Assembly: GCA_019358855.1 (NCBI GenBank) | Contig: JAHHII010000010.1 | Span: 1 to 64,000 of the forward strand | Direction of reading: 5' to 3' | From: Timaviella obliquedivisa GSE-PSE-MK23-08B | Lineage (GTDB): Bacteria; Cyanobacteriota; Cyanobacteriia; Elainellales; Elainellaceae | Length of the DNA stretch: 64,000 nucleotides | Made by a program: the position numbers and the translations under genes | In this document: one piece after another, positions 5,484 through 5,878 of the stretch | Numbering within the stretch: the first letter of the stretch is position 1 | Layout of the letters: every line of letters begins with the position of its first letter | Notes under the pieces: generated by a model | Seen by the model: the letters and a program-made list of their open reading frames with translations, nothing else | Database searches by the model: none | Told to the model about the DNA's origin: nothing

Positions 5484-5660
5484 GTGCTTCCTACGGCAGA
5501 GCAGTTATCTAGTTGTTTTGTCTTGACCTGCTGGGCTACCAGGATGTATCTACCTGTTTTCCTAGTCCGAATGGATGAACAAACAGGGAAAGTATTTTTT
5601 TTGGCAGGCGAAGAGACTGAAGTATCGATTGAACGCAATGGACTTTGGAGTTATCTATGA
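5484..5660 (+). CDS. DUF6888-like small protein (58 aa), first gene of a coupled pair
   Basis: An intact short frame that starts with GTG at 5484, six bases after AGGAG (5473-5477). The product begins VLPTAEQLSSCFVLTCWA and ends with [21 protein letters not shown]. The same layout (LPTxEQ...C near the start; ILAxE-x-IxISRDGIWRF at the end) recurs in the broken gene near 31.1 kb, and in both places a DUF6887-like gene follows. I recall this as the cyanobacterial DUF6888 family; the name is from memory, the paralogy is seen directly. The stop overlaps the next start as ATGA (5657-5660), indicating translational coupling. Function unknown; a toxin-antitoxin-like pair is one possibility. Confidence 0.72.
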   Translation: MLPTAEQLSSCFVLTCWATRMYLPVFLVRMDEQTGKVFFLAGEETEVSIERNGLWSYL

Positions 5661-5878
5661 CAAATCCAAATTTTGAGTCAATGACTCGTCGAGAATTGCG
5701 AAATTACATTCTTGAGAACCGAAATGACGATGATGCATTTCGTGCCTACATGGATAGGATTGAGGCAATACCTAGTAAGGTATGGCACCCGGCTCCTAAA
5801 TCCATGGATGATCTGAGTAACTTTTCCCAGCTTCTAGAGGAACATCGGCAGCGACAGAGAGAGCAAGAAGAACAATAG
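5657..5878 (+). CDS. DUF6887-like small protein (73 aa), second gene of the pair
   Basis: The start is taken as ATG 5657, in the ATGA overlap with the upstream gene, rather than the TTG twelve bases earlier. The N-terminus [20 protein letters not shown] and [14 protein letters not shown] closely resembles the protein at 30863-31066 (MKPNFEIMPRQDLIAYVL, HRDDNEAFEILLSR). Both have an N-terminal helix-turn-helix-sized segment, a D/N/E-rich turn and a charged C-terminus, here very Gln/Glu/Arg rich. This matches what I recall as DUF6887, widespread in cyanobacteria beside DUF6888. No catalytic motif is visible. It lies just upstream of the CIRCE operator of groEL. Confidence 0.75.

Follow-up and report, generated by a model that had tools for sequence, protein, structure and literature searches.

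An overlapping DUF6888-DUF6887 gene pair of cyanobacteria in which the first gene frequently carries a conserved AUU, AUC or AUA codon at its start

Comparative analysis of DUF6888 and DUF6887 in cyanobacteria revealed a recurrent pair of small, overlapping genes, the first of which, DUF6888, frequently carries a conserved AUU, AUC or AUA (AUH) codon in place of ATG, GTG or TTG. Both families were already known to Pfam, where no function is assigned to them. What is new is that the two genes are usually paired, that DUF6888 frequently has a conserved AUU, AUC or AUA start, that a ribosome-binding site for the partner gene is encoded by codon choice, and that decay of the two genes is biased. 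With a probability of about 0.45, we read the DUF6888-DUF6887 pair as a mobile two-gene module of an effector and its antagonist, similar to a toxin-antitoxin or a sigma/anti-sigma pair. A more tentative proposal, which we regard as possible and somewhat doubtful, is that the mobile, multi-copy DUF6888 keeps AUU, AUC or AUA through selection against AUG, and that the pair represents a new cyanobacterial class of IF3-gated effector-antagonist systems that is partly hidden from gene finders.

The pair was analysed starting from a stretch of 64,000 nucleotides of Timaviella obliquedivisa GSE-PSE-MK23-08B (contig JAHHII010000010.1, positions 1 to 64,000), hereafter the window, in which two copies were present. 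All four encoded proteins exceeded the gathering scores of Pfam (PF21828 for DUF6888 and PF21826 for DUF6887). In the first copy, located on the plus strand at 5.5 kb, a Shine-Dalgarno sequence AGGAG (5474–5478) precedes a DUF6888 gene of 58 amino acids (5484–5660; PF21828, E 5.2e-23), which starts with GTG at 5484 and belongs to the canonical-start type. The DUF6887 gene of 73 amino acids (5657–5878; PF21826, E 7e-22) overlaps it through ATGA. A GGAG in the tail of DUF6888 (5647–5650), 6 nt 5' of the ATG, is the likely Shine-Dalgarno sequence of DUF6887, as judged from the sequence and from a codon bias seen across the family. Thus, the GTG start with its upstream AGGAG and the ATGA overlap, both of which had been described in an earlier note on this DNA, could be confirmed.

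The second copy, which the same note had placed at 31 kb with a 17-base overlap, was located on the minus strand at approximately 31.25–30.86 kb based on Pfam profile matches. Its DUF6887 gene of 67 amino acids (30863–31066; PF21826, E 4.1e-19) is intact and shows the 17-base overlap. Its DUF6888 (31050–31251; PF21828, E 8.1e-17) is frameshifted, with two frames matching the family. A 10-bp unit repeated 2.9 times in tandem at 31182–31210 shifts the frame and thereby breaks the gene, and the conserved N-terminus (PTTEQGFACIRVCQMLSN) is found in a different frame from the remainder. This N-terminal frame contains no ATG, GTG or TTG from the upstream stop to the proline of the family start; instead, an ATT (31249–31251), which is the likely start codon, follows GAGGA (31259–31263), the likely Shine-Dalgarno sequence of the gene. 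A GGAG in the DUF6888 tail (31075–31078) likely serves DUF6887 in the same manner. A first gene of 74 residues starting from the ATG at 31274 was also considered and was rejected, as its N-terminus lies in the wrong frame. This frameshift of DUF6888 in the second copy had been overlooked in the earlier note.

In the sister genome G147, a DUF6888-DUF6887 pair could be read from translations at the same fabG-groEL place as in the window, with DUF6888 intact and DUF6887 frameshifted. A motif search recognised the end of the fabG gene in 15 of the 30 fabG loci kept, including the window and G147, and these two were the only ones among the 15 with groEL behind fabG. An empty insertion site at fabG-groEL was not found by this motif search among the 30 fabG loci. 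The gene located 3' of groEL in the window (7762–8421) resembles what we take to be a Uma2-type nuclease.

The distribution of both families was evaluated in a sample of 116 cyanobacterial genomes, in which presence was counted at E values up to 0.001. DUF6887 was present in 27 genomes and DUF6888 in 25, with up to 11 DUF6887 matches in a single genome. A DUF6888 was located within 400 bp on the same strand for 72 of the 88 DUF6887 matches, and DUF6888 was the first gene in all 72 pairs. The genome of the window contained eight DUF6887 matches and seven DUF6888 places above the Pfam cut-off, so that the pairing goes beyond chance. Plasmid copies were also found in cyanobacteria (six records per protein), and the spread of the pair is accordingly patchy and mobile (27/116 genomes, six plasmid records per protein). 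The small, adjacent, co-directional and often overlapping genes display the layout of a type II system, the two genes overlapping by 4 nt in 78 of 116 pairs. The earlier note had proposed a genome-wide search for co-occurrence and had described the pair as a modular, dispersed, overlapping module; the genome and plasmid copies support both the co-occurrence and this description, and reveal a module that is multi-copy and partly plasmid-borne.

For further analysis, the sampled genomes (minus one G097 match and one G044 fragment) were combined with 80 named loci of cyanobacteria and the window. The named loci were chosen by conserved DUF6888 peptides and therefore lean to one subfamily. The collection comprised 165 distinct DUF6887 genes, consisting of 146 paired genes and 19 without a nearby DUF6888. 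Exclusion of 27 pairs in which DUF6888 was partial left 119 full-length DUF6888 genes for analysis. In locus L131 (6174–6788), DUF6887 was found to carry a C-terminal extension of approximately 140 residues with no Pfam match above the cut-off. Loci L219 and L227 (genomes G058 and G024) share a DUF6887 extension of approximately 110 residues, for which Pfam shows nothing besides DUF6887 in the one that was scanned. The extensions were compared, like the omega values given below, among the rows other than that of the window.

Database searches matched the pair proteins to only the two DUFs in Pfam, and the Pfam lines seen for both give no function and are silent on pairing, start codon and layout. 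NCBIfam and PADLOC produced no match for either protein, including to their toxin-antitoxin or defence families, in agreement with the earlier remark that no known toxin motif is visible; no toxin or antitoxin family was matched in Pfam either. Matches in PHROGs were weak (E 0.11 or worse). With one subfamily as the query, no DUF6888 match was obtained in phages, and 42 stretches of viral contigs fitted a pattern with none confirmed. A literature search for the names DUF6888 and DUF6887 found no paper in the collection searched. As to the earlier view of the pair as a candidate for an undescribed system, both families already have a Pfam name.

The start of DUF6888 was classified as canonical when an ATG, GTG or TTG (NTG) was located at most six codons upstream of the conserved proline. 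Such a start was present in 57 of the 119 full-length genes and absent in the remaining 62. An NTG was missing from the entire open frame in 48 of these 62 copies, and it was located seven or more codons upstream in 14. Sixty of the 62 carried an ATT, ATC or ATA (ATH) codon among codons -1 to -3 (46 of them at -1), the two exceptions being L172 and L246, while no CTG was present within six codons in any of them. When the genome sample was counted together with the window, 18 of 52 genes had no NTG (17 of those with ATH) and 34 were canonical; among the named loci, a set leaning to one subfamily, 44 of 67 had no NTG. The no-NTG copies span 14 named cyanobacterial families. The odd start is not essential to the module, since 57 of 119 genes (34 of 52 in the sample), including the 5.5 kb copy, have a canonical start nearby.

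A Shine-Dalgarno match of at least 4 preceded 56 of the 62 no-NTG copies. A match of at least 5 was found in 45 of 62 no-NTG copies compared to 15 of 57 canonical ones (p 5e-7, relatedness ignored), and in the sample alone in 9 of 18 compared to 7 of 34 (p 0.056, relatedness ignored). A conserved start other than ATG, GTG or TTG and, in most cases, a strong Shine-Dalgarno sequence are two traits that the no-NTG copies share with IF3-controlled genes of noncanonical start. As many copies are without a canonical start codon, DUF6888 is easily missed by gene finders, which goes beyond the original claim made for the GTG-started gene of the window.

The infC gene of relatives was used as a control at 30 loci, of which 27 were readable by motif and 26 were distinct. 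In 23 of the 26, a putative ATG start was located 9 to 18 codons upstream of the conserved motif, and the exceptions (L289, L296 and L306) showed a TTG or a more distant ATG. The odd start is therefore no general habit in this clade. Two IF3_N matches were recorded in 11 of the 30 genomes of the infC loci, which is relevant to any role of IF3.

Both genes are under purifying selection. Over the first 16 codons from the conserved proline, the 62 no-NTG copies showed a pN/pS of 0.136 and a median omega of 0.085, compared to median omega values of 1.17 and 2.42 in wrong-frame controls made from the no-NTG DNA over 38 codons; the value for DUF6887 in the selection analysis was 0.123. Upstream of the gene, bases -33 to -19 of the no-NTG copies were little conserved, and conservation stood out at the Shine-Dalgarno sequence and at the ATT preceding the proline. 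The tree of the 119 DUF6888 proteins, constructed with the start-codon columns excluded, revealed 13 changes between start types, a number drawn from a short and weakly resolved alignment. Fifty of the 62 no-NTG copies belonged to one supported group of 67 proteins and 12 were scattered outside. The codon before the proline in this group was ATT in 37, ATC in 8 and ATA in 6 (51 ATH in total) and ATG in none, whereas outside the group ATG was observed 12 times and ATT once. As ATG is only one base away, AUG seems to be avoided in the group of 67, with shared descent lowering the weight of this count.

The start of DUF6887 could be read in 116 of the 119 pairs, after three late matches were dropped and with ATG counted if it lay near the family start. 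It was ATG in 112, GTG in 3 and TTG in 1. The Shine-Dalgarno sequence of DUF6887 sits inside the tail of DUF6888, where the arginine following the conserved tryptophan (85 copies) was encoded by AGG in 66 and by AGA in 18; among the other arginine codons of the same DUF6888 genes, AGG accounted for 10 of 234. Judged from codon usage, the AGG bias in this Trp-Arg tail writes the Shine-Dalgarno sequence of DUF6887, and from such a layout DUF6887 looks set up for strong expression.

Decay affected the two genes unequally. Among 71 pairs of the sample and the window, 55 were intact, 10 had a broken DUF6888 beside an intact DUF6887, none had the reverse and 6 had both genes broken, figures that carry some bias from the longer scoring core of DUF6888 (54 vs 44 positions). 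Moreover, 12 of 17 solo DUF6887 genes were intact in the sample and window. In the sample, damage or loss thus affects DUF6888 more often than DUF6887. Among the named loci, a set chosen for DUF6888, decay of DUF6888 only was seen in 4 cases vs 1 of DUF6887 only. The pair of G147, with its frameshifted DUF6887 beside an intact DUF6888, is a counter-case. In locus L193 (6290–7618), a gene that appeared transposase-like by eye separates a truncated DUF6888 from an intact DUF6887 located 1.5 kb away.

The AlphaFold model of DUF6888 from the first copy (pLDDT 95.4) consisted of one helix and four strands, and that of DUF6887 (pLDDT 80.4) of three helices. Comparison of the DUF6888 model against PDB and viral models gave no significant fold match (best Z 6.1). 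A DNA-binding role of DUF6888 suggested by the C-terminal domain of T4 MotA (1kaf; Z 5.8, rmsd 1.8, 56 aligned) was rejected as lying within the background of the tool, and a likeness to RnlA (6y2q; Z 4.6) was rejected likewise. DUF6888 may nonetheless have a toxin fold. The DUF6887 model gave two Foldseek matches in PDB, both weak, and the sequence search of PDB produced weak matches only. Pfam identified no DNA-binding family in either protein. Ribbon-helix-helix or HTH genes were observed upstream of the pair in four of the six plasmid loci read, above the Pfam cut-off in L253 and L257 and below it in L255 and L256.

Some neighbours belonged to known toxin-antitoxin families. In L097 (G000 contig 7, approximately 24.2 kb), a solo DUF6887 immediately follows a HicB antitoxin gene identified by Pfam, before which a HicA-like end was recognised by eye, and in L095 an orphan DUF6887 adjoins HepT. 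Control regions removed such neighbours (HicAB, HepT) as evidence. Near 33 pair or solo loci, about 9 of 120 small ORFs matched toxin or antitoxin Pfam families, which was no enrichment over the about 8 of 108 in 20 control regions; the tally was made among 25 of 29 families listed for the loci and 25 of 27 for the controls, one protein may match several families, and the controls were hand-picked and partly from the same genomes. The expression layout and the decay bias fit an effector and its antagonist; family matches, significant fold matches and an enrichment of neighbours that would point to a toxin-antitoxin nature were not obtained.

Under the effector-antagonist reading, initiation of DUF6888 would be held low at its AUH start, probably through the rejection of such codons by IF3. 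Low initiation of DUF6888 would lead to DUF6887 being made in excess, and the excess DUF6887 would bind and neutralise DUF6888, which would act once DUF6887 falls or start-codon proofreading relaxes. Copies with a canonical start, including the one at 5.5 kb, would represent this module with a higher translation of the first gene. The assignment of DUF6888 as the effector and DUF6887 as the antagonist follows the layout of sigR-rsrA and the weak-start precedent of KacT4, as given in excerpts of the respective papers (PMC5472188, PMC9431474). From this layout we infer the steps to toxicity, binding and IF3 control. The gene overlap may itself link the translation of the two genes and thereby reduce any surplus of DUF6887.

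The same expression layout would also fit two subunits of a harmless complex with a regulatory or adaptor role, in which DUF6887 is required in greater amounts than DUF6888 and the weak start does no more than set this ratio. The lack of a significant toxin fold match and the C-terminal extensions of DUF6887 in loci such as L131 and L219 are consistent with such a complex, but its patchy, multi-copy and partly decayed spread is unlike that of a subunit of a housekeeping complex, and we consider it somewhat unlikely. We give still less credence to a selfish or decaying family that is kept by copying, has no host function and tolerates odd starts. The 16 of 71 sample pairs that are not fully intact, the up to 11 DUF6887 matches per genome and the plasmid copies are in conformity with it, whereas the purifying selection in odd-start copies, the Shine-Dalgarno match of at least 4 in 56 of 62 no-NTG copies, and the 51 ATH codons against no ATG, a codon one base away, in the group of 67 argue against it.

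Two further readings concern the start codon. The AUH codon could act as a switch that reads the IF3 level or initiation fidelity, with sensing rather than the protein ratio as its purpose. IF3 represses such codons, according to an excerpt of PMC5472188, but the canonical-start copies manage without AUH, and we regard this reading as quite improbable. Alternatively, DUF6888 may be translated from elsewhere and its missing start misread, for which the 14 of 62 copies with an NTG at least seven codons upstream could be cited. The 48 of 62 copies without NTG in the open frame, the absence of CTG within six codons in all 62, the purifying selection that sets in at the first conserved codons and the Shine-Dalgarno sequence at a fixed distance all speak against it, and we regard it as the least credible of these explanations.

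The natural variants found at one place (ATT, ATC, ATA, ATG and TTG) would serve to study the start-codon proofreading of IF3. The family would also show that gene finders which accept only ATG, GTG and TTG can overlook a conserved gene family or place its starts wrongly. Should the pair prove toxin-antitoxin-like, it would represent one such system in which initiation of the first gene is throttled.

Only a small number of the noncanonical start codons of bacteria have been characterised experimentally, according to the excerpted text of PMC5472188. Proteogenomics of Nostoc 7120 reported ATA and ATT starts, and on the excerpted part of that study (PMC8557916) cyanobacteria appear to use such starts. 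The infC genes of E. coli and Streptomyces start with ATT or ATC (PMC5472188, in excerpt), as DUF6888 does with its ATT or ATC; unlike DUF6888, infC is essential and controls itself, and 23 of the 26 loci read from relatives have an ATG close to its conserved N-terminus. Type II toxin-antitoxin systems share with DUF6888-DUF6887 the two small, overlapping, co-directional genes and the patchy presence on plasmids and chromosomes, but DUF6888 and DUF6887 match no known toxin or antitoxin family, and antagonism is presumed here. KacT4, the toxin of an overlapping pair, shows that a weak start can be conserved on a toxin gene: 369 of 370 have GUG as the start, a codon to which its non-toxicity is attributed by the authors (PMC9431474, in excerpt). 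KacT4 is encoded behind its antitoxin and starts with GUG, in contrast to DUF6888, which is the first gene of its pair and has AUH at its start. In Streptomyces sigR-rsrA, a noncanonical start and IF3, which represses such start codons, keep the effector below its antagonist, as stated in the excerpted part of PMC5472188. The sigR start is GTC whereas that of DUF6888 is AUH, and sigR-rsrA is a sigma/anti-sigma factor pair rather than a mobile multi-copy family. In both systems, as far as that excerpt extends, the upstream gene has a conserved noncanonical start with a strong Shine-Dalgarno sequence, and the second gene has its own ribosome site inside the first.
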